Source: Pseudomonadota bacterium
Lineage (GTDB): Bacteria > Chloroflexota > UBA6077 > JAJPGT01
Length of the DNA: 64,000 nt
Assembly: GCA_021325655.1 (NCBI GenBank)
Contig: JAJPGT010000096.1
Span: 124,001 to 188,000 of the forward strand
Reading direction: 5' to 3'
Shown: in pieces, positions 6,475 to 32,229 of the stretch
Layout: the number at the start of each line of letters is the position of its first letter
Numbering within the stretch: the stretch's first letter is position 1
Position numbers and translations under genes: made by a program
The notes under the pieces: model-generated
What the model saw: the letters and a program-made list of their open reading frames with translations, nothing else
What the model was told of the DNA's origin: nothing
The model's database searches: none

Positions 6475-7581
6475 TCAGCGCTCTGGGCCGAGCAGCCGAC
6501 CGGCGAGGAGCCGCAGCGCCGGGCGGGCGAGCACCTCCGGATCCTCGCGCGGGTCGTCCGGGTAGGCCACCAGGTCGGCCGGAGCGCCTTCCTCCAGGCC
6601 GGGCAGCCCCAGGAAGCGGCGCGCTGCCCACGAGCCGGCCGCCAGCGCGTCCGGCTGGGGCAGGCCCGCGCTCAGCAGCCGGCGAATCTCCTCGCGGATC
6701 ATCCCGTGTGGCCCCATGCCGGCGTCGGTTCCCGCCAGCACCAGCACCCCAGCCTCGGCGGCGCGTCGGGTCATCTCCGGGTGCCGGCTGGCCGCGGCCC
6801 GGAGCATCGCCTCCGTTCGCGGCGTCAGCTCCAACGCCCCAAGCATCGCCTCGACGGCGGGGATGATGGTCAGCGTCGGCACCAGCACGATGCCATGTCG
6901 CGCCATCGCCGCCAGATGGTCGTCCCGCAGTCCCCAGCCGTGCTCGATTGAGTCGAAGCCGGCCTCGATCGCGGCGTCGATCGTCTCGGCAATGGTTGCG
7001 TGGATCGCGATTCTGGCCCCGAGCGCGTGCACCCGCTGCGCCGCGGCGGCAAGCGTGGCGGGCCGGAAGTTCGACTGCATCCGGCCATTCGAGCTGAAGA
7101 AGTCGCCGATCACCTTGGCCCAGGCGCCGCTGGCCCGCGCCTCCTCCTCGGCAGCCTGCGGCAGCTCCTCGTCCCGTACCTCACGGGCAAGACCCGGGAA
7201 GTAGCCGCCGGGCGGCGCCAGGAACCGGCCACCGCTAAAGACACGCGGCAGGTCCTCATCCGGCCCCAGCCCCACGGAGGCGTGGTCCGGCCCGCCCGGC
7301 TCGCGGATCGTCAGGACGCCGGCCTCCAGTTGCGCCCGGGCGCTGGCCCGGGCGCGCTCCCGCGGCGGCGCGTGCGGCGGAGCCGGACTGGCCAGCCCGA
7401 GATGGGCGTGGGCATCTACCAGGCCGGGAGTCAGGTAACCGCCGTTCAGAGCGGTCTGGGCGTCCTCCGGCGCCTGAAAAGTGAGTCGGCCGTCGACCAC
7501 GAACAGGTCACGCCTGGCCCCCTCCGGCAGTAGGACTCCGCGCAGATGCAATGGCCGCGCCCCCAATGCTCCAGTGCCCAT
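6475..7581 (-). CDS. Amidohydrolase (imidazolonepropionase-like)
   Basis: A 368-residue metal-dependent hydrolase of the amidohydrolase superfamily. Metal ligands are visible: the HxH pair in [10 protein letters not shown], a Lys in [10 protein letters not shown] that may be the bridging carboxylated residue, His in ARIAIHATI, His in [11 protein letters not shown] and Asp in LAGTDAGMG. The barrel is flanked by the usual small beta-sandwich built from N- and C-terminal segments ([10 protein letters not shown], and [10 protein letters not shown] near the end). The substrate cannot be assigned: relatives hydrolyse cyclic amides, prolidase-type dipeptides or deaminate bases. It is upstream of pyrG on the same strand but separated by pyrG's own leader. 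Confidence 0.85.
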
Positions 7582-7664
7582 CAGCGCCCCCAGGTGAGAT
7601 GTCAGAGAGATCGTCGTGGGAGCGCGGGCAGCGTTACAGCGGCACCCGGGCTGGCCAGCCCACG

Positions 7665-7994
7665 TTAGTAGCGCTCGAACCGCTCGACGGGCAGGACGAA
7701 GCAGATGGCGCCGCCCACTTCCACTTCCAGCGGATAGGGCATGTACAGCTCGCCAGGCTCCATCACCGGCGGCAGCGGGTTGACGTACTGGCGGCGGGTG
7801 GTGCAGGTCTCGCGGATGATCGTGAGCACCTCGTCGACCCGCTCGTCCTCGACGCCGATGAGCAGCGTCGCGTTCACTTCGCGCAGGAACCCGCCTGCCG
7901 TCTTGACCCGGGTGCTGCGGAAGTCGCGCCGCGTCAGCCCATCGATCAGATCGCCGGCGTCTTCAGATTGCACGATGGCGATGACCAGCTTCAT
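7665..7994 (-). CDS. darA: Cyclic-di-AMP receptor (DarA/PstA family)
   Basis: A 109-residue PII-like signalling protein of the CdAMP_rec family (formerly YaaQ/DUF970). MKLVIAIVQSEDAGDLIDGL and LTRRDFRSTRVKTAGGFLRE carry the conserved beta1-alpha1-beta2 core and the Gly-Gly turn. NATLLIGVEDERVDEVLTII is the second ferredoxin-like half. Such proteins trimerise and bind c-di-AMP at subunit interfaces. Its ATG directly abuts the tmk stop codon, and the tmk-darA neighbourhood is common in Firmicutes and Chloroflexota. It implies c-di-AMP signalling in this organism; the cyclase is not in the window. Confidence 0.9.
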   Translation of the reverse strand: MKLVIAIVQSEDAGDLIDGLTRRDFRSTRVKTAGGFLREVNATLLIGVEDERVDEVLTIIRETCTTRRQYVNPLPPVMEPGELYMPYPLEVEVGGAICFVLPVERFERY

Positions 7995-11816: not shown

Positions 11817-13151
11817 GTGTTCTGGAATCCATCCGTCGAACAGATGCCGCGCCCCGAGCTGGAGGCGCTACAACTGCAGCGGCTGCGCTGGTCCGTGGCT
11901 CACGCTCGCCACGGCAACCCGGTGTACCGGGCGCGGATCGAGCGGGCCGGCGCAACCGAAGACCGCCTCGCCAGCCTGGACGACCTGCGCCGACTGCCAT
12001 TTACCACCAAGGCGGACCTGCGCGAGCACTACCCCACCGGCCTGTTCGCGGTGCCGCTGGACCAGGTGGTGCGGATTCACGCCTCCAGCGGGACCCGCGG
12101 CAAGCCTACCGTAGTCGGCTACACCCGCAAGGACCTGGCCACCTGGTCGGAGGTGATGGCCCGCTGCCTGGCGCAGGGTGGTGCCAGGCCCGGCACGGTG
12201 CTCCACGTCGCCTACGGCTATGGCCTGTTCACCGGCGGGCTCGGCTTCCATATGGGCGGGGAGCTCCTGGGCTGCCGGGTGATCCCGATGTCGAGCGGGA
12301 ACACCGCCCGGCAGATCCTGATGATGCGCGACCTCGGCTCCCAGATGCTCGGCTGCACCCCTTCCTACGCGCTCACCCTCGCCGGAGCGCTCGCCGAGCA
12401 GGGCATCCAGCCGAGCCAGCTCCGGCTGGAGAGCGGAATGTTCGGCGCTGAGCCGTGGACCGAGGGGATGCGCCAGGCAATCGAGCAGGGGCTGGGGCTG
12501 CGGGCCTATGACATTTATGGGCTCTCGGAGGTGATCGGCCCCGGGGTGTCCGCCGAGTGCCAGGAGCAGGACGGACTGCACATCCAGGAGGACCACTTCC
12601 TGCCGGAGATCGTCGACCCGGCCAGCGGCGAGCCGCTCCCAGAAGGTGCGGAGGGCGAGCTGGTGCTCACCTCGCTCACGAAGGAAGCGCTGCCCGCCAT
12701 CCGCTATCGCACCGGCGACGTCACCGCGCTCACCCGCGCCCCCTGCCGCTGCGGCCGCACCAGCAGCCGCATGGCGCGCATCAAGGGGCGCTGCGACGAC
12801 ATGCTCATCATCCGCGGCGTGAACCTGTACCCCTCCGAAGTCGAACGGGTACTGCTACGGATGAAGGAGCTGGCGCCCCACTACCAGCTCTTGCTGCGGC
12901 GCGAGCGGGCGCTGGACGAGCTGGAGGTCCAGGTGGAGGTGGCGGAGACGTTCCTGGCGAGCGCCGCCCCGGGCTGGCAGAGTGACGCCGAGCCAGTACC
13001 TGCCGCAGTGCAGGGGCTGGCCGAGCGCGCCCGCCAGCGGCTGCTGGACGAAACAGGCGTGCGGATGCGCGTCACCCTGCGCCCGCCCCGCTCGCTGCCG
13101 CGTAGCGAGGGCAAGGCAGTGCGGGTGGTGGACCTGCGCGATCGGGGCTGA
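11817..13151 (+). CDS. paaK: Phenylacetate-CoA ligase
   Basis: A 444-residue acyl-adenylate-forming enzyme activating phenylacetate (or a related aryl acid) to its CoA thioester with ATP, the first step of aerobic phenylacetate breakdown. The phosphate-binding loop is SSGTRGKPTVVGYT. The adenine-binding core is YDIYGLSEVIGPGVSAEC, the hinge YRTGDVTAL is followed by a Cys-rich CRCG turn, and the mobile C-terminal domain carries DDMLIIRGVNLYPSEVE. GTG 11817 follows GGAGGAG. Two hydratase-family genes follow closely, matching a paa-type operon. The oxygenase genes paaABCDE are not in the window. Confidence 0.9.
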   Translation: MFWNPSVEQMPRPELEALQLQRLRWSVAHARHGNPVYRARIERAGATEDRLASLDDLRRLPFTTKADLREHYPTGLFAVPLDQVVRIHASSGTRGKPTVVGYTRKDLATWSEVMARCLAQGGARPGTVLHVAYGYGLFTGGLGFHMGGELLGCRVIPMSSGNTARQILMMRDLGSQMLGCTPSYALTLAGALAEQGIQPSQLRLESGMFGAEPWTEGMRQAIEQGLGLRAYDIYGLSEVIGPGVSAECQEQDGLHIQEDHFLPEIVDPASGEPLPEGAEGELVLTSLTKEALPAIRYRTGDVTALTRAPCRCGRTSSRMARIKGRCDDMLIIRGVNLYPSEVERVLLRMKELAPHYQLLLRRERALDELEVQVEVAETFLASAAPGWQSDAEPVPAAVQGLAERARQRLLDETGVRMRVTLRPPRSLPRSEGKAVRVVDLRDRG

Positions 13152-13176
13152 CAGGTACGCGGAACGGGGGACAGGG

Positions 13177-13950
13177 ATGAGCGAGGAGCTGGTGCAGGTC
13201 GAGCGCCGTGGCGCGGTGGGCGTCATCACCATGAACCGCGCCCGGCAGCTCAATGCGCTCAGTGAAGAGCTGATGAGCGCGGTGGGTGACGCGGCCGAGA
13301 CGCTGGACCGGGACGAGGCGATCGGGGCGCTGGTCCTGACCGGCGGGCCGGAGGTGTTCGCCGCGGGCGCGGACCTGAAGCAGATGGCCGAGCAGTCGGC
13401 GGTGGATATGGTGTATGCCAACCGTATCCGGCACTGGGACCGGCTGCGGCGGATCGCCAAGCCGCTCATCGCCGCGGTGAGCGGCTACGCGCTTGGCGGC
13501 GGCTGCGAGATGGCGATGCTGTGCGACCTGATCGTCGCCTCCGACAGCGCCCGCTTCGGCCAGCCGGAGATCAACGTCGGCCTGATGCCCGGCGCCGGGG
13601 GCACCGCTCGCCTCACCTACGCCGTCGGCAAGAGCGTCGCGATGGACCTGGTGCTCACCGGCCGGATGCTCGACGCCTGGGAGGCGCAACGACGCGGGCT
13701 GGTCTCGCGGGTGGTGCCCCGGGAGCTGATCGTGGACGAGGCAGTGGCGCTGGCAGCGGAGATCGCCACCAAGCCGCGGCTGTCGGCACGGCTGGCGAAG
13801 GAGGCGGTGACCCGCGCCGCCGAAACCACGGTGGCCGAAGGGGTGGAGCACGAGCGCAAGCTGTTCTACCTGCTGTTCGCCAGCGAGGACGCGCACGAGG
13901 GGATGCGGGCATTCGTCGAGAAGCGGCGGCCCCAGTATCGCGGCCGCTGA
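13177..13950 (+). CDS. Enoyl-CoA hydratase/isomerase family protein (PaaF-like)
   Basis: A 257-residue crotonase-fold protein. The oxyanion hole lies in AAGADLKQMAE and GYALGGGCEMAMLCD; the catalytic glutamates of a true hydratase are present in GGCEMAM and GQPEINVGLMPGAGGT. It therefore likely adds water to an enoyl-CoA, as PaaF does in phenylacetate degradation. ATG 13177 follows a purine-rich GGGGGACAGGG; a longer frame upstream overlaps paaK and lacks family sequence. It sits between paaK and the PaaG-like gene in an apparent operon. Confidence 0.85.
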   Translation: MSEELVQVERRGAVGVITMNRARQLNALSEELMSAVGDAAETLDRDEAIGALVLTGGPEVFAAGADLKQMAEQSAVDMVYANRIRHWDRLRRIAKPLIAAVSGYALGGGCEMAMLCDLIVASDSARFGQPEINVGLMPGAGGTARLTYAVGKSVAMDLVLTGRMLDAWEAQRRGLVSRVVPRELIVDEAVALAAEIATKPRLSARLAKEAVTRAAETTVAEGVEHERKLFYLLFASEDAHEGMRAFVEKRRPQYRGR

Positions 13951-13973
13951 GTCCGGCCGGCGGCGAGGGAGAG

Positions 13974-14768
13974 ATGGGCTACGAACAGATCCAGACCGCG
14001 TCTGCGGACGGCGTGCTGACGATCACGCTGAACCGCCCCGAGGCGCTGAACGCCTTCATCCCGGAACTCCATCGCGAGCTGGCCGATGCGCTCAAGCAGG
14101 CGGAACGGGACGCGGCCACCCGCGTCCTGGTGATCACCGGCGCCGGCCGCGCCTTCTGTGCCGGCCAGGACCTGAAGGCGCTGGAGGACCTCCCGCCGGC
14201 GGGCCAGCCGACCGGGCTGCAATCGCTGCTGCGCACCAGCTACAACCCGCTAATCCTGCGGCTGCGCGCGATGGAGAAGCCGGTCATCGCCGCGATCAAC
14301 GGCGTCGCCGCGGGCGCCGGCCTGAGCCTGGCCCTGGCCTGCGACATCCGTATCGCCGGCGAGTCCGCCGTGTTTACCTGCGCGTTCACCCGCGTCGGAC
14401 TGGTGCCAGACTCCGGTAGCACCTACCTGCTGCCCCAGGTGGTGGGCATCGGCCGAGCGCTCGAGCTGGCCTGGACCTCGCGCACGGTGAGCGCGCAGGA
14501 GGCGCTCCAGATCGGGCTGGTGAACCGGGTGGTTCCGGCCGAGCGGGTCCTACCCGAGGCTCAGGAGCTCGCCGGCCAGCTCGCTCGCGGCGCCGCCACA
14601 GCGATCGGGCTCACCAAGCGCGCGATGTACCGCGGGCTGACGTCCGACCTGGAGACGATGCTGGACTACGAGGCCGGCTTGCAGGAAGCGGCGGCCCGCA
14701 CCGAGGACTTCCGCGAAGGCCTGGCAGCCTTCAAGGAGAAGCGGCCACCGCGCTTCACCGGCCGCTAG
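13974..14768 (+). CDS. paaG: Enoyl-CoA hydratase/isomerase family protein (PaaG-like)
   Basis: A 264-residue crotonase-fold protein. The motif FCAGQDLKAL and the segment GLVPDSGSTYLLPQVVG resemble PaaG, the ring-1,2-epoxyphenylacetyl-CoA isomerase, more than ordinary hydratases: an Asp replaces the second catalytic Glu region (VGLVPD). Together with paaK and the PaaF-like gene this supports phenylacetyl-CoA catabolism. ATG 13974 follows GGCGAGGGAGAG and is 23 nt after the previous stop. The exact substrate is inferred from context. Confidence 0.75.
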   Translation: MGYEQIQTASADGVLTITLNRPEALNAFIPELHRELADALKQAERDAATRVLVITGAGRAFCAGQDLKALEDLPPAGQPTGLQSLLRTSYNPLILRLRAMEKPVIAAINGVAAGAGLSLALACDIRIAGESAVFTCAFTRVGLVPDSGSTYLLPQVVGIGRALELAWTSRTVSAQEALQIGLVNRVVPAERVLPEAQELAGQLARGAATAIGLTKRAMYRGLTSDLETMLDYEAGLQEAAARTEDFREGLAAFKEKRPPRFTGR

Positions 14769-20032: not shown

Positions 20033-20623
20033 CTACTCCCAGGCCATCTGCTCTTCGGGCGCCAGGCTCCCGATAGCCCGGCGGAACCGATAGGTGAGCG
20101 CGGCCGGGCGGCGGGGGGGCCGGGCGCTGCCCGCCTGCTGTCCGACACGGGCGACGACGAGGGAGGGGCCGGGCTGGGTGAGCGCCCGATCCAGCGTCGC
20201 TCGGAACGCCTCCAGTGTCTCGACGCGTTCGCTCCAGGCCCAGCCGAGGTCGCGCACGACGGCCGCCAGGTCGGCATTGACGGCGGTGGCGCTCTCCTGC
20301 CCGCCGGTCAGCCCGAGTCGCTGGTTGTCCCAGATGATCACCGCCAGGTTGGGCGGGGCGAAGCGGCCGACGGAGACCAGTCCGCTCAGGCCCATCAGCA
20401 CCGCCCCATCTCCTTCCAGCACTAGGACCCGGTCGTCCGGCCGGGCCAGCGCCAGGCCGAGACCGACGGAGACCGCGACGCCCATTGAGCCCCAGGTATA
20501 GAAGTTCCGGGCGCGATCGCCCGCCTGGAACAGGTCGAAGGTGGCGTTGCCCAGCCCGGTCACCACCAGTTCGTGGGTGAGGCGCGCGGCCACCACGCGG
20601 TTGGCTGCCTGTCGGTCGATCAT
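20033..20623 (-). CDS. Thiamine-diphosphate enzyme, PP-domain subunit (sulfopyruvate decarboxylase beta-like)
   Basis: A 196-residue protein corresponding to the C-terminal pyrophosphate-binding domain of TPP-dependent decarboxylases. The TPP motif is EGDGAVLMGLSGL, followed by the Asn of VIIWDNQRLGLTGGQ. The N-terminal ~30 residues lead into GLGNATFDLF. In this family (ComE, and the matching half of phosphonopyruvate decarboxylase) it pairs with a separate PYR-domain subunit, here encoded by the overlapping upstream gene. The substrate may be sulfopyruvate, phosphonopyruvate or another 2-oxo acid; sequence alone does not decide. Confidence 0.8.
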   Translation of the reverse strand: MIDRQAANRVVAARLTHELVVTGLGNATFDLFQAGDRARNFYTWGSMGVAVSVGLGLALARPDDRVLVLEGDGAVLMGLSGLVSVGRFAPPNLAVIIWDNQRLGLTGGQESATAVNADLAAVVRDLGWAWSERVETLEAFRATLDRALTQPGPSLVVARVGQQAGSARPPRRPAALTYRFRRAIGSLAPEEQMAWE

Positions 20624-21126
20624 CCGCGATTCCCCCCGGTCAGGCGGCTATCCAGGATCACGGCAACCCCGCGGCCGGTGTCGTAGGCGAGCTTCGCCGC
20701 GCCCCGGATGACGCGGTCCAGGTCGTCGGGCGCGGTCACGGTGTAATGCGGGATGCCGAGGCTATCGAACAGCGGCCGCGCGGCGAGCTGCATCGGGACC
20801 TGCACCGGGTTCCACTCGCCGAGCCCGCCGCGCTGGCTGATGAGCATCAGCAGCGGAATCTCGTAGGGAACGGCCAGGGAGGCGAGCGCGTTGGCAGCGT
20901 TGCCCAGCCCGGAGTTCTGCATCAGCAGCGCCGCGCGCCGGCCGCCCAGGTACAGCCCGCAGACCACGCCCACGCCATCCTCCTCACGAGGCATGGGCAC
21001 CAGGCGCACCGCGCTGTCCGTCTCCGCCCGGCGCAGGATCTCGTGCAGGATGATGTCGGGGACGTAGACCAGGGTGTCCACGCCGCTGGCCTTCAGGGCA
21101 GCGAGGGCGATCTCAGCCCAGTGCAC
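20620..21126 (-). CDS. Thiamine-diphosphate enzyme, PYR-domain subunit (sulfopyruvate decarboxylase alpha-like)
   Basis: A 168-residue protein corresponding to the N-terminal PYR domain of TPP decarboxylases (ComD-like). It has the conserved Glu in PMPREEDGVGVVCGLYLGG and the segment ALLMQNSGLGNAANALASL, which is diagnostic for ComD and phosphonopyruvate decarboxylase. The start is GTG 21126, with GGGAGG about 8 nt upstream. It overlaps the PP-domain gene by four bases (ATGA), as expected for subunits made in equal amounts. A TATAAT box lies ~30 nt upstream, back to back with the AOR promoter. Confidence 0.8.
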   Translation of the reverse strand: MHWAEIALAALKASGVDTLVYVPDIILHEILRRAETDSAVRLVPMPREEDGVGVVCGLYLGGRRAALLMQNSGLGNAANALASLAVPYEIPLLMLISQRGGLGEWNPVQVPMQLAARPLFDSLGIPHYTVTAPDDLDRVIRGAAKLAYDTGRGVAVILDSRLTGGNRG

Positions 21127-21155
21127 CGGTGCCTCCCACGGGGTGTCGGCGCGGC

Positions 21156-21161
21156 ATTATA
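21156..21161 (-). promoter_or_regulatory. Candidate -10 box (TATAAT) of the TPP-enzyme pair
   Basis: Consensus TATAAT on the minus strand, ~30 nt before GTG 21126. No clear -35. It is divergent from the AOR promoter only ~35 bp away, so the two units could share a regulator. Confidence 0.5.
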
Positions 21162-21193
21162 GTCGGCCCCGCGGCCTCCCCGGCCGCGGCCGC

Positions 21194-21221
21194 CTGACAC
21201 CGCCGCGGTGGACGGTATACT
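21194..21221 (+). promoter_or_regulatory. Promoter of the aldehyde:ferredoxin oxidoreductase gene
   Basis: CTGACA (21194-21199) and TATACT (21216-21221) are separated by 16 bp, giving a leader of about 70 nt before ATG 21297. Confidence 0.6.
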
Positions 21222-21296
21222 TTGGCGTCTCGACGCCGTAGCGCGCTCCGCTCTGCCTGGCGCGATCCGAGCGTGCTCTGATGAAAGGAGCGGTCC

Positions 21297-23180
21297 ATGA
21301 CTCTGTACGGCTACGCGGGGAAGATCCTCGAGGTTGATCTGGCCGCGCGAACACACACGGTGCGCGATCTGGACCCTGATCTCGCCAACCGCTTCATCGG
21401 CGGCACTGGGCTGGGCGCCTACTTGCTGTACCAGGAGGGCACCTACGCGGTCGATCCGCTCGGGCCGGACAACACGCTCATCTTCGGCACTGGCCCCTTC
21501 GCCGGCACCTCGGTGCCGCTGTCCAATCGGTACGGCGTGTGTGCCCGCTCGCCATTGACGGGGGTGTTCGGCGAGTCGGAGTGCGGCGGACACTGGGCGA
21601 ATGACCTGAAGCGGGCTGGCTACGATCTGCTGATCGTGCGAGGTAAGGCGGATCGCCCGGTCTACCTCTGGATCCACGACGACGAGGTCGAATTTCGGGA
21701 CGCCTCCCACCTCTGGGGCAAGGATACGTTCGAGACCCACGACCAGCTCCGCGAGGAGGTCGGCCAGGTCGGGCGCAGCGGCCAGGAGGCGCGCATCATC
21801 TGCATCGGGCCGGCCGGGGAGCGGCTGGTGCGCTACGCGGCGATCATGAACGACGGCGCCGACGGCCGCGCCGCCGGGCGCACCGGCATGGGCGCGGTGA
21901 TGGGCTCGAAGAACCTGAAGGCGATCGTCGTCCGTGGGACCAAGGACTTCCCGATCTACGACAAGGCCGGGCTGGACAAGAGTGTCAAGGGCCTGGCCAA
22001 GGACATCGTCAGCACCGCCAAGGGCTTCGGCAAGCTGGGCACCGCCGGGGGTGTGCCAACCCACGACAAGATGGGCAACTGGCCGGTGAAGAACTGGGCC
22101 GGCGACCACTTCCCGCAGGGCGCAGAGAACCTCTCCGGCGCCCGGATGGCGGAGTCGATCCTGACCGGCCGCTACTACTGCGGCAACTGCATCATCGGCT
22201 GCGGCCGGGTGGTGCACGTGAAGGAGGGGCCGTATGCCGGCATCGAGCAGGCAGGCATCGAGTACGAGACGATGTCGCTCAACGGGGCCAACCTCCTGCT
22301 CGACGACCTGGCGGCAGTCCAGAAGCTCAACGAGCTGTGCAACCGCCTCGGGATGGACACCATCTCCGCAGGCGCCACGCTCGGCTTCGCGCTGGAGGCG
22401 TACGAGCGCGGGCTGATCGACAAGGACGACACCGACGGGATCGACCTGACGTGGGGCAACGGCCCGGCGCTGGTGGAGGCGATGCGCCGCGCCGGGATGC
22501 GCGAGGGCAAGTTCGGCAACCTGCTCGCCGAGGGCACCCGGCGCGTCGCCGCGGCGATTGGCGGCGTGGAGTTCGCGGTCCACGTCCGAGGGCTGGACGC
22601 TCCGGCGCACGATCCGCGCGCGTACTACGCCAACGCCGTCGCCTACGCCACTTCCGCCCGTGGCGCCTGCCATCTGTCGTCGTTCGGCCACGTCTTCCAG
22701 CGCGTGGTGAGCCTGCCCGAGCTAGGCTACCCCGAGCCGGTGAATCGGCTGGATGCCGAGCGCACCCCGCAGCTTGTGCTGGACGGCCAGAACCTGATGG
22801 GCCTGTACGACAGCTTGAAGATCTGCAAGTTCACCCTGTTCGGCGGGGTTAAGCCGCGCCACCTGCACGAGTGGTACAACCTGATCACTGGCCGGAACCT
22901 GACGCTGGAGCAGTTGCTGGAGATCGGCGAGCGGATCTTCACCGTGAAGCGGATGTACACGCTCGCCGCCGCGCCCGACGAGCCGGACACCTTGCCGCGG
23001 CGCTTCCTGGAGCTGCCCCGCGACATCGGCATGGAGTCGCGCTCGGTGCCGCCATTCGAGCCGATGCTGAAGCGGTACTACGAGCTGCGCGGCTGGACCG
23101 AACACGGTCGGCCGAAGCCGGAAGTACTGCGGCGCCTCGGGCTGGACACCCTGGCCCCGCTCCCGGTCGCCACCGCTTGA
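21297..23180 (+). CDS. aor: Aldehyde:ferredoxin oxidoreductase (tungsten enzyme family)
   Basis: A 627-residue AOR-family enzyme oxidising aldehydes to carboxylates with ferredoxin. The N-terminal domain has YAGKILEVDLAART and GTGLGAYLLY; the cofactor-binding core includes GVFGESECGGHWANDLKRAG. [4Fe-4S] ligands are Cys295, Cys298 and Cys302 (YYCGNCIIGC) and the distant Cys510 (KICKFTLFG), the same spacing as in archaeal AOR. The enzyme would need tungsto- or molybdo-bispyranopterin made elsewhere. ATG 21297 follows GAAAGGAGCGG. Divergent TPP decarboxylase subunits could supply an aldehyde substrate, which is an inference. Confidence 0.9.
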   Translation: MTLYGYAGKILEVDLAARTHTVRDLDPDLANRFIGGTGLGAYLLYQEGTYAVDPLGPDNTLIFGTGPFAGTSVPLSNRYGVCARSPLTGVFGESECGGHWANDLKRAGYDLLIVRGKADRPVYLWIHDDEVEFRDASHLWGKDTFETHDQLREEVGQVGRSGQEARIICIGPAGERLVRYAAIMNDGADGRAAGRTGMGAVMGSKNLKAIVVRGTKDFPIYDKAGLDKSVKGLAKDIVSTAKGFGKLGTAGGVPTHDKMGNWPVKNWAGDHFPQGAENLSGARMAESILTGRYYCGNCIIGCGRVVHVKEGPYAGIEQAGIEYETMSLNGANLLLDDLAAVQKLNELCNRLGMDTISAGATLGFALEAYERGLIDKDDTDGIDLTWGNGPALVEAMRRAGMREGKFGNLLAEGTRRVAAAIGGVEFAVHVRGLDAPAHDPRAYYANAVAYATSARGACHLSSFGHVFQRVVSLPELGYPEPVNRLDAERTPQLVLDGQNLMGLYDSLKICKFTLFGGVKPRHLHEWYNLITGRNLTLEQLLEIGERIFTVKRMYTLAAAPDEPDTLPRRFLELPRDIGMESRSVPPFEPMLKRYYELRGWTEHGRPKPEVLRRLGLDTLAPLPVATA

Positions 23181-24355: not shown

Positions 24356-26041
24356 CTACGCTCCCCAGGCCTGGTACACCAGCCGGGAGAGGTCGGCGAT
24401 GAGCTGATTGCCGGCCTCATCGCTGGTCGAGCCGCTCGTCATCACCGCCAGCACGTAGGTGCCACGGTGCCCGTGGATGATCCCCACGTCGTTGGCCACC
24501 CCCGGGTACCAGCCACTCTTATGCTCGATCCGCACATCCGGGGGCAGCGCCCGGGCGAGCTTACTGAAGTCCTCCGTGGTGCTGAGCAGCGCCCGCATCT
24601 CCGCACTCGCCCTGCTGTCTACGAGCCGATCGGTAGCAAGCAACTGCAGCAGGCGCGCCATGTCGGCAGCGGTGGTCAGGTTTCCCCCCGGCTGCGCCGG
24701 GCTGCGGGTGGAGGAGAAGTGGTTGCGGAGCTGGGTGTGGCGCAGCCCGTAGTCCTCGAGCACGGCGTTGACCCGATCCACGCCAACCAGGTCCATCAGT
24801 CGGTTCGCCGCGTCGTTGTCGCTCACCGAGATCATCCGGCTCAGGTCCTGGCGCACGGCGTCCGTCCAGGTCAGGTGTCCGTCACTCGCCTCCTGGTACA
24901 GGGTCACCATAATCCCCAGCTTCAGGACGCTGGCGGAGGGAAGTACGGCGTCTGGGGAGACAGCGACCCGCTCGTTCGTCGCCAGGTTGAGGCCAACCAG
25001 GCCGACCTCCACCGCGGCGGGCTGGCGGGCGAGCAGCGCCTCGATCTGGTCCTGCAGGCCCGCGCGGGCCGAGGCCGGAGTGGTGGCCGGCGGCTGGGGT
25101 GACGGGGTGGGAGTGGCCGCCGGCGCCGGGGTGGGATCGGCCGCGGGTACAGTCCCCGCCGCGCTGAGGCGCTGAGCCAGGTCCAGCACCTCCTGCACCC
25201 GCTCCTGTGTCGCCGGGCTGACTCCACGCGAGCGCACGCTCGCCGGGCCTTGCAGGTACGCCGCCACCGCCTGCGACTGGTCGCCGAACCGATCCAGCAG
25301 GTAGCGCAGGTAGGTGACCCCGGCCTCGATGTTATCCGCGACCGGGTCGCCCGAGGGCGCCCTGCCCAGGAGGGTCGTCTGCACCCACTGCTGGGTCGCC
25401 GGGGTGAGCTGCATCACCCCGTGCGCCGCGTCCTCGCTGCCGGCATCCGGATTCCAGCGGCTGACGTGCCAGGCCAGCGCCCGCACCAGCGTGGCATCCA
25501 CCCCATGCTTCAGCGCCGCGCTGTCGAGCTGGCCGGCGATCGGGGAGCTGGGGAGCGCTGCCGCCGCCACCGGCGCGGGCGTGGGCGACGCCGCCGGAAG
25601 CGTGAGCCGGGCGCCTACCACCAGGGTATCCGGGTTCTGCAGCCGATTGAGGCGCGCCAGCTCCTCTACACTCAGCCCATGCGCCCGGGCGATCGTCCAG
25701 AGCGTATCGCCCGGCTTCACCGTCACCACAGTCACGTCCGATGCCGCCGCGTCTGCGGTGGCCGGCGTTGCGCTGGGCGCCGGGCTCGGGCCGTCGGCCG
25801 GGGCGCCGCTGATGGTGAGCACCTGGCCAACCCGAATCAGGTCCGGGTTCGTGATCCCGTTCACCTGGGCGAGCTGGCTCACCGAGACGCCGTAACGGCG
25901 GCTCAACCCCTCCAGGGTGTCGCCCGGCTTCACCACGATCTCCGTCACCTCTCCGCGCGCCCCGGCGAAGCTGGGGCCCACGAGCGCGAGCGCTGCGCCG
26001 ATCGTCGCGCAGAGCCGCGCCCAGCGCCACCGTCGTCGCAT
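24356..26041 (-). CDS. LysM-LysM-degenerate SLT-class A serine hydrolase fusion
   Basis: About 561 residues, exported by a signal peptide (WARLCATIGAALALVG). Counted from an alternative GTG at 26047, the order is LysM 36-80, LysM 106-150, a lytic-transglycosylase (SLT)-like domain ~175-290, a Pro/Ala linker ~300-328 and a class A beta-lactamase-like hydrolase ~330-563. The hydrolase has SxxK (Ser373-Lys376), SDN (409-411) and KSG (510-512). The SLT domain keeps AHGVMQLTPAT, but WHVSRW stands where the catalytic Glu-Ser should be (His194). It probably binds peptidoglycan and cleaves or senses it. ATG 26041 has the better-spaced GGGGAG. An obvious beta-lactamase Glu166 equivalent is not visible. 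Confidence 0.75.
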   Translation of the reverse strand: MRRRWRWARLCATIGAALALVGPSFAGARGEVTEIVVKPGDTLEGLSRRYGVSVSQLAQVNGITNPDLIRVGQVLTISGAPADGPSPAPSATPATADAAASDVTVVTVKPGDTLWTIARAHGLSVEELARLNRLQNPDTLVVGARLTLPAASPTPAPVAAAALPSSPIAGQLDSAALKHGVDATLVRALAWHVSRWNPDAGSEDAAHGVMQLTPATQQWVQTTLLGRAPSGDPVADNIEAGVTYLRYLLDRFGDQSQAVAAYLQGPASVRSRGVSPATQERVQEVLDLAQRLSAAGTVPAADPTPAPAATPTPSPQPPATTPASARAGLQDQIEALLARQPAAVEVGLVGLNLATNERVAVSPDAVLPSASVLKLGIMVTLYQEASDGHLTWTDAVRQDLSRMISVSDNDAANRLMDLVGVDRVNAVLEDYGLRHTQLRNHFSSTRSPAQPGGNLTTAADMARLLQLLATDRLVDSRASAEMRALLSTTEDFSKLARALPPDVRIEHKSGWYPGVANDVGIIHGHRGTYVLAVMTSGSTSDEAGNQLIADLSRLVYQAWGA

Positions 26042-26171: not shown

Positions 26172-26927
26172 CTAGCGGAACAGGTCGCGCTCCGCGGGGC
26201 GAAGAAGATCCCGGCCACTGCCCGGACCGGCCTGATAGCGGACGCCGCGCACGAGCGCGACCGGCACCTGGTCGATCTTCCCCATCACCAGCTCCGCGGC
26301 GGAGGCCAGCTCATCGGCCAGGGCGATCTCGCTCACCTGCATCACGTAGCCATACGGGTCGGTCTGCCCGACGTAGCTCTGGATGGGGGACAGGCCGGCG
26401 ACGCCAATGGCAACGTTGACCAGCCCGTTGCGCCAGGGGCGTCCGAAGGTGTCCGAGATCACCACCGCCAGCTCGACGCCGGCCAGCCGGCTGAGCTGCG
26501 CCCGCAGCCGCGCCGCCGAGGCGTCCGGGTCGAGCGGGAGCAGGCACACCTGCTCGCCGCCATCGACGTTCGACTCATCCACACCGGCGTTGGCGCAGAC
26601 GAAGCCGTGATAGGTTTCGGTCACCAGCACCCCACGGTCCATCTTCACCACCCGGCGGCTCTCGCGCAGGACGATCTCGACGTAGCGGGGATCTTTGCCC
26701 CATTGCTGGGCATACCGGCGAGCGAAGACCGAGGGCTCGACGTCGGCGAGGCGGACAAGTCGCCCTTCGGCCTTGGAGACCACTTTTTGCGTGACGACGA
26801 CCACATCGCCAGGCTCCAGGCGTTCGTCCTGATCGCGCAGCGCCGTCCAGATCGCGGCGGCGAGGTCGGTGCCGGGGTGTACCTCTCCGATTCTGCGCAC
26901 AGGAATAACACGGACCGCCACGCTCAC
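26172..26927 (-). CDS. cofE: Coenzyme F420-0:L-glutamate ligase
   Basis: A 251-residue GTP-dependent ligase adding glutamate residues to F420-0. Family motifs: EPGDVVVVTQKVVSKAEGR near residue 40, GFVCANAGVDESNV (GTP/metal site) and VVISDTFGRPWRNGLVNVAI. It corresponds to CofE and to the N-terminal half of mycobacterial FbiB; the FbiB C-terminal domain is absent. Its ATG overlaps the cofC stop (ATGA, 26924-26927). It completes a three-gene cofD-cofC-cofE operon. Confidence 0.95.
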   Translation of the reverse strand: MSVAVRVIPVRRIGEVHPGTDLAAAIWTALRDQDERLEPGDVVVVTQKVVSKAEGRLVRLADVEPSVFARRYAQQWGKDPRYVEIVLRESRRVVKMDRGVLVTETYHGFVCANAGVDESNVDGGEQVCLLPLDPDASAARLRAQLSRLAGVELAVVISDTFGRPWRNGLVNVAIGVAGLSPIQSYVGQTDPYGYVMQVSEIALADELASAAELVMGKIDQVPVALVRGVRYQAGPGSGRDLLRPAERDLFR

Positions 26928-27610
26928 CGTCCCGCTCCACTCGCTGCCAGCCGGGGGAAGCGCTCGGCGATCCCGAGCTGCGCCAGCGCCCGCCGGGTCG
27001 CCGGCCCGCCGCCGCGGTCCAGCACCAGCCGCAGATCATCCGGGGTATCCACGTCCAGCGCGAGGTTGGGGTTCAGCCAGACGCGGCAGGTCAGTCCAGC
27101 CGCACGCGCCGCCTGCTGGTGGCGGAGCAAGCTGTCTGGCCCGAACTGCGCCGCGATGCAGGCTGGGGGGCGGCGCAGCAAGGCATTGGTCCCCCGCTGG
27201 GCGCGATCCGGGCAGAGCACCACGCCGCGCGGGTGCGCCTCGTTCAGCGCGATCAGCTCGTCCACATCGCGGGCGGTGAGCAGGGGGACGTCGGCTGGCA
27301 GGACCAGCAGCGCCTCCCAGCCCCGCGCTTCGGCCAGGCGGGCGGCGGCGTCGGCCGCGGCGTGGTAGCCCAGCGCCGCCGACTCGAGCAGCACCTCGGC
27401 GCCCCAGCCGCGCGCCAGCGCCAGGAGCTCGTGGTCCGTGCTCTGCACCGCCACACCCGCAACCAGGCGCGCAGCGGTCAGCGCCGCCAGGACGTCCGCG
27501 AGCATCGCGGTGACCAGCAGGGCTCGCTCCTCGGCGGCCAGCGCCTCGCGCAGCCGCTCTTTGGCGCGCTCGCGGCTCTTGACAGGCACCACGGCCCAGG
27601 TACGCTTCAT
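26924..27610 (-). CDS. cofC: 2-phospho-L-lactate (or phosphoenolpyruvate) guanylyltransferase
   Basis: A 228-residue nucleotidyltransferase activating 2-phospholactate or PEP with GTP for F420 synthesis (CofC/FbiD). It starts TWAVVPVKSRERAKERLRE, the MobA-like N-terminus with the conserved PVK and LR residues, and contains VLPADVPLLTARDVDEL (metal-binding Asp pair) and GTNALLRRPP. ATG 27610 overlaps the cofD stop by four bases. Whether phospholactate or PEP is used cannot be told. Confidence 0.9.
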   Translation of the reverse strand: MKRTWAVVPVKSRERAKERLREALAAEERALLVTAMLADVLAALTAARLVAGVAVQSTDHELLALARGWGAEVLLESAALGYHAAADAAARLAEARGWEALLVLPADVPLLTARDVDELIALNEAHPRGVVLCPDRAQRGTNALLRRPPACIAAQFGPDSLLRHQQAARAAGLTCRVWLNPNLALDVDTPDDLRLVLDRGGGPATRRALAQLGIAERFPRLAASGAGR

Positions 27611-28548
27611 CGGACCACCCCCGCGGCCGCCAGCACGCGCCGCGCCAGCTCCCGCTTCTCCCCTGCACCGCGCATGATCGTCGGCGCCACCACCACCTCC
27701 AGCCCCAGGGCTCGCAGCCCCGGGACCAGCACGACGTCCAGCTCGTCCAGCACCATATAGTGCAGAAAGTCCTGGTAGAGCCGGGCAACCCCGACCGGTG
27801 ACACCTCGTGGCCCAGGCTCCGCAGCATCCGGTCCGCCGGCCCTTTCAGTGCCGCCCCGCCGACAATCGGGCTGACGGCCACCCTGGGCGCCGAGGCGGC
27901 GCGCAACGCGGCGCGAATGCCGGGTACCGCCAGGATCGGCCCCAGGCTGACCAGCGGATTGCTCGGCGCCAGCAGGATCGCTCCCGCCTGCTCCAGCGCC
28001 TCGATCACTCCGGGCGCGGGCGTCGCCTGCTCCACACCCGCGAACGCAATCTCCAGCACCTCGTCCTGCTGGCGCCGCTTGACGAAGTACTCCTGGAACG
28101 GCAGCCAGCCGTCCGGGGTGCGGATCCGGGTGGCCACCGGCTGGTCGGTCATCGGCAGGAGCCGGACCCGCACCCCGAGGGCGCGCCGGGCCTGGTCTGT
28201 GATCTGGGAGAGCGGCACTCCGCGGCGGAGCAGGTCGGTGCGATGGATCGCCAGCGCCAGGTCGCGGTCCCCCAACCGGAACCACGTCTCGCGGTCGTAG
28301 CGGCCAATCTGCTCGAGCACTGCGAAGGTATCGCCGCGCAGTCCCCAGCCCTGCACCGGGTCCACCAGCCCGGCCAGGGTGTAGGTGACGATGTCCAGGT
28401 CTGGCGAGACGTGCAGACCCCAGAACTCGGCGTCGTCCCCGGTGTTGACGATCGCGGTCACACGCTCCGGCGCGACGACCTGGACGAGCCCCTCCAGGAA
28501 GCGCGCTGCGCCTACCCCGCCTGCCAGCACCACAATGGAATCGGCCAT
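27607..28548 (-). CDS. cofD: 2-phospho-L-lactate transferase
   Basis: A 313-residue transferase joining the phospholactyl (or phosphoenolpyruvyl) group to the deazaflavin Fo (CofD/FbiA). The N-terminus SIVVLAGGVGAARFLEGLVQ is the Rossmann-like GTP-derived substrate loop; the Fo site carries NTGDDAEFWGLHVSPDLD, diagnostic of the family. APSNPLVSLGPIL and the GGAALKGPADRML segment complete it. ATG 28548 starts directly at the motif. It is the first gene of cofDCE, with TATACT ~45 nt upstream. Fo synthase (cofGH/fbiC) and F420-dependent enzymes are not in the window. Confidence 0.95.
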   Translation of the reverse strand: MADSIVVLAGGVGAARFLEGLVQVVAPERVTAIVNTGDDAEFWGLHVSPDLDIVTYTLAGLVDPVQGWGLRGDTFAVLEQIGRYDRETWFRLGDRDLALAIHRTDLLRRGVPLSQITDQARRALGVRVRLLPMTDQPVATRIRTPDGWLPFQEYFVKRRQQDEVLEIAFAGVEQATPAPGVIEALEQAGAILLAPSNPLVSLGPILAVPGIRAALRAASAPRVAVSPIVGGAALKGPADRMLRSLGHEVSPVGVARLYQDFLHYMVLDELDVVLVPGLRALGLEVVVAPTIMRGAGEKRELARRVLAAAGVVR

Positions 28549-28590
28549 CGCTCGCCAGAACCCAGCGCCCCGTGCCGGGGCAGCCCGGCG

Positions 28591-28596
28591 AGTATA
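28591..28596 (-). promoter_or_regulatory. Candidate -10 box (TATACT) of cofDCE
   Basis: TATACT on the minus strand, 42 nt before the cofD ATG. No strong -35 hexamer. Confidence 0.4.
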
Positions 28597-28665
28597 GCCC
28601 GCCCCCACCACCCCGGCCACGCGGGCGGCCATGAGCTGCTCCGTGGTCGCGTGGCGCGGCCTCGG

Positions 28666-29064
28666 CTAGAAGGTGACGCCGCCGACCAGGATGGCGTTGG
28701 CGTAGGGGCTGCATTCGCCGGTGCGCACCACCAGCCGGGCGTCGCCGACGAGGGCCTTGAGCTCGGCGTGGCTCACCTGGCGCAGCGGGACGCCGGGCCA
28801 GAGCGCGGCGACCCGGCGCTGCATCTCGGCGTTGACCTGCTCGAGCTCCCGCGCCACGATCACCTGCTCCACAGCCAGCGTCCCGGCCAGCACCTCCAAC
28901 GTCTGGAGGAAGCCGGGCACGCCAGCCACCAGCGACAGGTCCAGGATGAGCGCGCCTGCCGGAATCGGCAGTCCGGCATCACAGACGACGATCGTTTGGC
29001 CGTGTCCCAGGCCGACGACGGCTGCTGCCAGCCGAGGGTTGAGAATGGTTCCACCCCGTTGCAT
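28666..29064 (-). CDS. rbsD: D-ribose pyranase
   Basis: A 132-residue RbsD/FucU-family mutarotase interconverting pyranose and furanose forms of ribose before phosphorylation. It has GGTILNPRLAAAVVGLGHGQ (catalytic His) and VVCDAGLPIP near the N-terminus, and the C-terminal RTGECSPYANAILVGGVTF active-site loop. ATG 29064 follows AAGGAGG. There is no rbsK or ribose transporter nearby, so the sugar may reach it through another importer. Confidence 0.9.
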   Translation of the reverse strand: MQRGGTILNPRLAAAVVGLGHGQTIVVCDAGLPIPAGALILDLSLVAGVPGFLQTLEVLAGTLAVEQVIVARELEQVNAEMQRRVAALWPGVPLRQVSHAELKALVGDARLVVRTGECSPYANAILVGGVTF

Positions 29065-31759: not shown

Positions 31760-32158
31760 CTAGTTGGGCGGGTCGCCGATCACGGACTGGACCGCGGCCA
31801 GCACGTCCTCCAGCTCGAACGGCTTGGAGAGGCACCCCTGCGCCCCGATCTCGTCGGCCCATTTCCGGGCGTCCTTGGCGGCGGTCATGACCAGAATCGG
31901 GACCTGCACCTGCCGCTGTCGGAGCCGGCGCGCGAACTCCCAGCCATCCAGCACGGGCATGCGCATATCTAGCAGGACGACCGATGGCCGGACCGAATCG
32001 ATGAGATGAAGTGCCTCCGCGCCGTTCTCCGCCGTGGCGACGGGGTAGCCTTCTAGACCCAGGAACTCCGAGAGGATCGACCGGATCGTGCTCTCGTCAT
32101 CGACGACTAGCACCGGCCCCCGGTCCGTGTCATCCACCTCGGTGCGGCTCGCCATCAT
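31760..32158 (-). CDS. Stand-alone response-regulator receiver (CheY-like)
   Basis: A 132-residue single-domain receiver. The acidic pocket is LVVDDESTI, the phospho-Asp is in VVLLDMRMPVLDGWEF, the Thr and Lys of the active site are in ILVMTAAKD and CLSKPFELEDVL. There is no output domain, so it acts by protein interaction. It is convergent with the PilZ gene, with only 9 bases between stops. A hairpin (32182-32206) sits just upstream of its start. Confidence 0.9.
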   Translation of the reverse strand: MMASRTEVDDTDRGPVLVVDDESTIRSILSEFLGLEGYPVATAENGAEALHLIDSVRPSVVLLDMRMPVLDGWEFARRLRQRQVQVPILVMTAAKDARKWADEIGAQGCLSKPFELEDVLAAVQSVIGDPPN

Positions 32159-32181
32159 CCGATCCGTACTCTCCGGAAACC

Positions 32182-32206
32182 GGGAGCGCCGTAAAGCGGC
32201 GCTCCC
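32182..32206. repeat. Hairpin upstream of the receiver gene
   Basis: A perfect 10-bp stem (32182-32191 with 32197-32206, 5-nt loop), 24 nt before the receiver start. It would lie in that gene's leader; on the opposite strand nothing upstream needs a terminator. Confidence 0.5.
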
Positions 32207-32229
32207 TCGGTAGTCGGTTCCATCCTAGC

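Follow-up and report, generated by a model that had tools for sequence, protein, structure and literature searches.

The window analysed here, a stretch of DNA of 64,000 nucleotides, encodes in one open frame (24356..26041, minus strand, 561 amino acids from ATG to stop) a protein that combines a putative signal peptide, two LysM modules, an SLT domain without its catalytic Glu, a Pro/Ala-rich linker and a PF13354 hydrolase domain. Judging from its sequence, this protein is fairly probably a wall-tethered DD-carboxypeptidase/endopeptidase. This is the best reading because the acylation machinery of the hydrolase is kept and the class A deacylation residue is gone, as in PBP-A and LRA-5, although the similarity to PBP-A is remote and a deletion in the hydrolase domain could have changed the substrate class altogether. 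LysM modules bind glycan, and the protein, once exported, would be tethered on glycan strands through its two modules. The SLT domain, devoid of the acid/base Glu, would not cut glycan and would contribute at most weak additional binding, and the C-terminal PBP-A-like serine DD-peptidase would be the working enzyme. In this enzyme, Ser371, assisted by Lys374, Ser407 and Lys508, would attack the D-Ala-D-Ala end of the stem peptide or the D-Ala-mDAP cross-link, forming an acyl-enzyme that would subsequently be hydrolysed. Beta-lactams would be expected to acylate the enzyme and to be turned over slowly, since there is no Glu166.

All domains exceed their Pfam gathering scores within the single frame, in agreement with the LysM-LysM-SLT-beta-lactamase-type fusion reported in the initial annotation. 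The interpretation given there, of a serine hydrolase borne on a scaffold that binds peptidoglycan, is likewise supported. The N-terminus, read by eye, displays a basic start followed by a hydrophobic stretch typed here as a putative signal peptide (residues about 1-29, 25955..26041, minus strand as for all features of the gene), and no lipobox was seen in it. LysM 1 (residues 36-77, 25811..25936) and LysM 2 (residues 106-149, 25595..25726) are the two stretches of a match of 118.4 bits (cut-off 20.9; E 1.2e-34), and the SLT domain (residues 174-273, 25223..25522) scores 64.2 bits (cut-off 21.3). The class-A-type serine hydrolase domain (residues 326-561, 24359..25066), placed by Pfam, PDB sequence matches and alignments, matches Beta-lactamase2 PF13354 with 149.7 bits (cut-off 22) in two stretches, between which profile positions 52-75 are missing. 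Structure prediction from the single sequence (AlphaFold) gave a mean pLDDT of 48 for the full protein and of 48 for the hydrolase domain alone.

The protein belongs to a small clade found in six of 400 genomes drawn from its phylum, own genome included, which were searched with the whole protein as query; all six lie in one order. The four-domain order, for which a search had been proposed, recurs in a single further protein, L017 (608 aa, genome G003), which the search matched across all four domains and whose SLT domain is confirmed by Pfam (E 2.2e-6); these phylum searches return the best candidates per genome only, so that more distant fusions could be missed. Three further members from one genus (L018-L020) consist of LysM-LysM-hydrolase with no SLT domain, and the sixth (L021) is cut by a contig edge. 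Two families of the order thus still have a recognisable SLT domain.

The serine hydrolase motifs SxxK, SDN and KSG, which had been noted as kept, are found as S371-V-L-K374 (24920..24931), S407-D-N409 (24815..24823) and K508-S-G510 (24512..24520), the latter within HKSGW, with HKSG starting at residue 507. These columns, including the whole HKSGW motif, are invariant in all six clade members. For comparison we take the class A position numbers to be 70, 130, 166 and 234. At the position of class A Glu166, alignments with PBP-A and within the clade place Phe442 (24716..24718), which faces Leu158 of PBP-A and is Phe in 6/6 members. Moreover, the omega loop (residues 434-458) contains neither Asp nor Glu and, therefore, no alignment shift can supply Glu166. 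The absence of this residue, a more important loss than that of the SLT Glu, had been overlooked in the initial annotation, as had the shortening by about 25 residues of the stretch from SxxK to SDN. The best solved relatives in a phmmer search of the PDB are the PBP-A structures 2j9o/2j7v (E about 2e-21, a remote similarity), followed by 4ewf. Since Glu166 is absent and the omega loop carries no acid, the closer parallel for the hydrolase domain appears to be the DD-peptidase PBP-A, not a beta-lactamase.

A wall-tethered beta-lactamase shielding the cell surface from antibiotics would agree with the PF13354 match, with the presence of SxxK, SDN and KSG and with a weak class A similarity, as the NCBIfam model NF033103 (bla_class_A) gives 80.7 bits. 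However, this score is far below the curated cut-off of 200, the acid-free loop leaves no candidate for Glu166 under any alignment and the segment ahead of SDN is deleted in all six clade members, which makes this role highly improbable; antibiotic degradation, one of the activities suggested initially, is disfavoured by the low score and the acid-free loop. Hits of environmental proteins to class A beta-lactamase models may be misread as resistance genes. The window protein should not count as one, for a reason that can be checked at a single position (166).

The favoured DD-peptidase-like function, also among the initial suggestions, draws on the comparison with PBP-A (Tll2115 of Thermosynechococcus elongatus, 2j7v/2j9o), for which the available part of PMC11189452 describes DD-carboxypeptidase and DD-endopeptidase activity. 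Like the window protein, PBP-A carries SxxK, SDN and K[S/T]G motifs and a hydrophobic residue in place of Glu166, in a fold that sequence similarity suggests here; both also have an N-terminal membrane or export part and a Pro-rich spacer, those of PBP-A as described in that part of PMC11189452. The same text reports that adding a Glu at the 166 position of PBP-A raised its beta-lactamase activity only 90-fold, and it mentions no LysM modules, unlike the architecture found here. LRA-5 (8eo5) is another class-A-like protein without Glu166 (Val166), whose beta-lactamase activity is described in the abstract of PMC12777564 as negligible and biologically insignificant. LRA-5 is a weaker match to the window protein than PBP-A (E 5.7e-10 vs about 2e-21) and, as far as that abstract goes, is named with no wall-binding modules.

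Penicillin-binding sensors form a long-lived acyl-enzyme, and the absence of Glu166 would give such a species if the hydrolase bound beta-lactams or muropeptides covalently and signalled without turnover. Nevertheless, Pfam finds neither a transmembrane signalling partner nor a DNA-binding domain in the protein, and its neighbours, a Zn-ribbon protein and cofactor F420 genes, are not conserved beside the relatives. No positive evidence was found for the sensing role raised in the initial annotation, which we consider very unlikely.

Proteins of the PF13354 family without Glu166 seem to be the norm in this group, with PF13354 matches in 28 of the 29 genomes of the class. Among 42 aligned rows, some of them from outside the class, Glu occupies the 166 column in just one (L171), in a loop that is poorly aligned. 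The frequency of such proteins in this class bears on the origin of class A beta-lactamases from wall peptidases. One PF13354 match (L185, genome G006) shows no SxxK, SDN or KTG at the aligned columns and is possibly a dead hydrolase domain.

The second distinctive trait of the clade is the deletion between SxxK and SDN, located at residues 394/395 (24857..24862) by the PBP-A and family alignments. The gap spans 25 columns, and residues 86-112 of PBP-A, including Glu96, face only two residues of the window protein. The distance between the Ser of SxxK and the Ser of SDN is 36 residues in 6/6 clade members and 58-73 in 36/36 other rows, one of which (L185) is without the motifs themselves, in an alignment, also used for the tree, of 42 rows (50 loci and the window supplied, nine loci dropped as duplicate or too weak). 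A further 22 loci from outside the clade have a spacing of 59-73 in 21 cases and of 35 in one (L221), and in a cyanobacterial sample of 30 loci the spacing can be read as 59-67 in 29 and is 43 in the remaining one (L231). Consequently, with L221 at 35 and L231 at 43, the 25-residue deletion is not fully confined to the clade. L221 comes from another family of the phylum (G382) and is without LysM; an equally long deletion may therefore have occurred independently in the clade and in L221.

Simulations reported in the available part of PMC11189452 put Glu96 of PBP-A at the entry of the active site, in long-lived contact with D-iGln. Without these 25 residues at the active-site mouth, the cleft would be wider and accessible to bulky cross-linked muropeptides, and the part that reads amidated D-iGln in PBP-A would be missing. 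The clade thus offers a natural deletion of the segment proposed in PBP-A to read the amidated substrate, rendering that proposal testable by comparison. With the mouth of the active site rebuilt in this manner and HKSGW invariant in all six members, the enzyme could share the serine hydrolase fold and yet act on a different wall substrate, such as an ester, an amide or a D-amino-acid conjugate. We regard this as rather improbable, given that a PBP-A-like core together with wall-binding modules suits a DD-peptidase at least equally and that no positive evidence points to another substrate.

Turning to the SLT domain, an SLT domain without its Glu cannot carry out the usual reaction, as established for Slt70, whose Glu478 we take to be the catalytic residue. 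In an ungapped HMMER alignment with Slt70 (1qsa), Val193 (GTC, 25463..25465) faces Glu478, a position also supported by the family alignments, while His192 faces Gln477 and Ser194 faces Ser479. The initial annotation was accordingly right about the dead domain and about its MQLTP core, which starts at residue 210, but its placing of His-Val at the Glu-Ser positions is off by one, the Ser being retained. Among the other 32 SLT domains aligned, this column holds Glu in 31 and Asp in the one exception, L017. The residue is Glu in 29/29 LysM-SLT relatives, which are the 32 without L017 and two other SLT proteins of the window's own genome, both of which keep the catalytic Glu too; wherever the frame is complete, LysM precedes SLT in these 29 relatives. 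It would take two substitutions to turn the GTC codon into either Glu codon and, therefore, a single base error would not explain Val193. Judged from these alignments, the absence of the catalytic Glu is a real loss. No other Glu stands at the catalytic column in the alignment, and the nearest acids considered as a replacement, Asp198, Glu203 and Asp204, lie downstream, before GVMQL and off that column. Loss of the Asn of AYNAGP was likewise considered as a further sign of decay and dropped, because the active relatives mostly have Tyr there (23/32).

The ancestor of the domain was probably a LysM-LysM-SLT lytic transglycosylase of the same phylum that still had catalytic activity. Proteins of this kind (L136, L137 and others) resemble the window protein in having LysM modules followed by SLT, with up to 42% identity in the SLT domain (L136, 54/128), but differ in keeping the catalytic Glu and in having no hydrolase domain; such shorter LysM-SLT proteins are spread through the phylum. 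MltD-type transglycosylases also combine SLT and LysM modules, although in loci from named organisms belonging to other phyla the LysM modules come after SLT, unlike the window protein with LysM first, which scores 63.8 bits with the NCBIfam MltD model (cut-off 508).

Could the SLT domain still be a working glycan-binding clamp under selection, steering the peptidase along glycan strands? This idea is compatible with a DD-peptidase hydrolase, and the window SLT domain keeps the G-x-M-Q motif (G208, M210, Q211) and 15 of the 18 near-invariant positions (at least 90% conserved in the 29 relatives), having lost only Glu193, Gly205 and Tyr281 (Arg here); a recognisable SLT domain also persists in both families of the order mentioned above. 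However, L017 keeps only ten of the 18, the end branches in a tree of 33 SLT domains are 0.61 for the window and 1.51 for L017 against a median of 0.21, and L018-L020 have no SLT domain at all. A clamp under selection is, on balance, somewhat unlikely. The window and L017 domains pair in that tree with a support of 92/76, which is not decisive.

Since three relatives are LysM-LysM-hydrolase proteins without any SLT domain, the dead domain looks, on sequence comparison, like a decaying relic of the LysM-LysM-SLT enzyme widespread in the phylum. It is doubtful that the domain serves as an essential scaffold, because three of the five complete clade members are without it, a fact that also speaks against SLT binding mattering to the DD-peptidase. 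The SLT domain of these proteins displays stages from a catalytic domain to a pseudo-domain and then to loss. The corresponding order of events, in which fusion came before the loss of catalysis and the domain itself disappeared last, would follow from parsimony on a partly unresolved tree. As a tentative proposal, the clade may represent a distinct non-cyanobacterial lineage of wall-tethered PBP-A-like DD-peptidases, marked by Phe166 and the mouth deletion, in which the hydrolase was fused onto a LysM-LysM-SLT transglycosylase whose SLT domain then lost catalysis. In some lineages it would have served as a glycan clamp that no longer cuts, and in others it would have been discarded. If true, the clade and its relatives would record, in full and legibly, the path of an active enzyme through a pseudo-domain to its disappearance.

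The distribution of the hydrolase domain is relevant in this context, since PBP-A is described in the available part of PMC11189452 as exclusive to cyanobacteria. In the hydrolase tree, the six clade members form one branch (SH-aLRT 99), separate from L197/L198, which stand for cyanobacterial PBP-A; the Nostoc and Calothrix relatives of PBP-A lie on a branch apart from the clade. The clade is sharply bounded. A profile of the six hydrolase domains gives 376-416 bits on the members, at most 122.5 elsewhere in the 400 phylum genomes and at most 102.8 in the 292 genomes searched from the phylum of G400, which was reached via a locus titled as a filamentous cyanobacterium. Moreover, of 73 hydrolase ORFs (repeat copies included), those of this clade are the only ones to share their frame with a LysM module, and none of the 30 loci of the cyanobacterial sample does so. 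A collection of contigs from 84,980 species yielded, among the matches listed, LysM-driven ones and none reaching the hydrolase domain, and a search of viral contigs with the hydrolase domain found no relative. Literature searches, whose reach left out most subscription papers, found no paper on a LysM-SLT-beta-lactamase fusion. Each domain is known, and the combination together with Phe166 and the deletion is a variant not found described in the literature searched.

A different PF13354 clade, mostly with KWG for KTG, has a LysM ORF just upstream of the hydrolase gene and on the same strand in 7/8 genomes (L127, on contig C109 of the window's own genome, L163, L166, L167, L169, L171 and L189; absent in L165). 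This gene pair mirrors the fusion of the window.

The fusion gene is flanked by genes for a Zn-ribbon protein, CofE and CofD. A comparison with four relatives found no adjacent genes common to their loci, and the only common matches are to frames of the window more than 5 kb away, at 12865-14765 (three relatives), 6478-7962 (two) and 31763-32224 (one). Since the adjacent genes are not conserved in relatives, the genomic context gives no support to the function. Upstream and on the same strand, 26175-29064 holds the cofactor F420 genes cofE and cofD and an RbsD/FucU gene, and the frame between cofE and cofD resembles cofC by eye. Finally, a TPP enzyme is split at 20036-23177 into separate genes for its N- and C-domains, with a gene for an aldehyde ferredoxin oxidoreductase next to it on the opposite strand.
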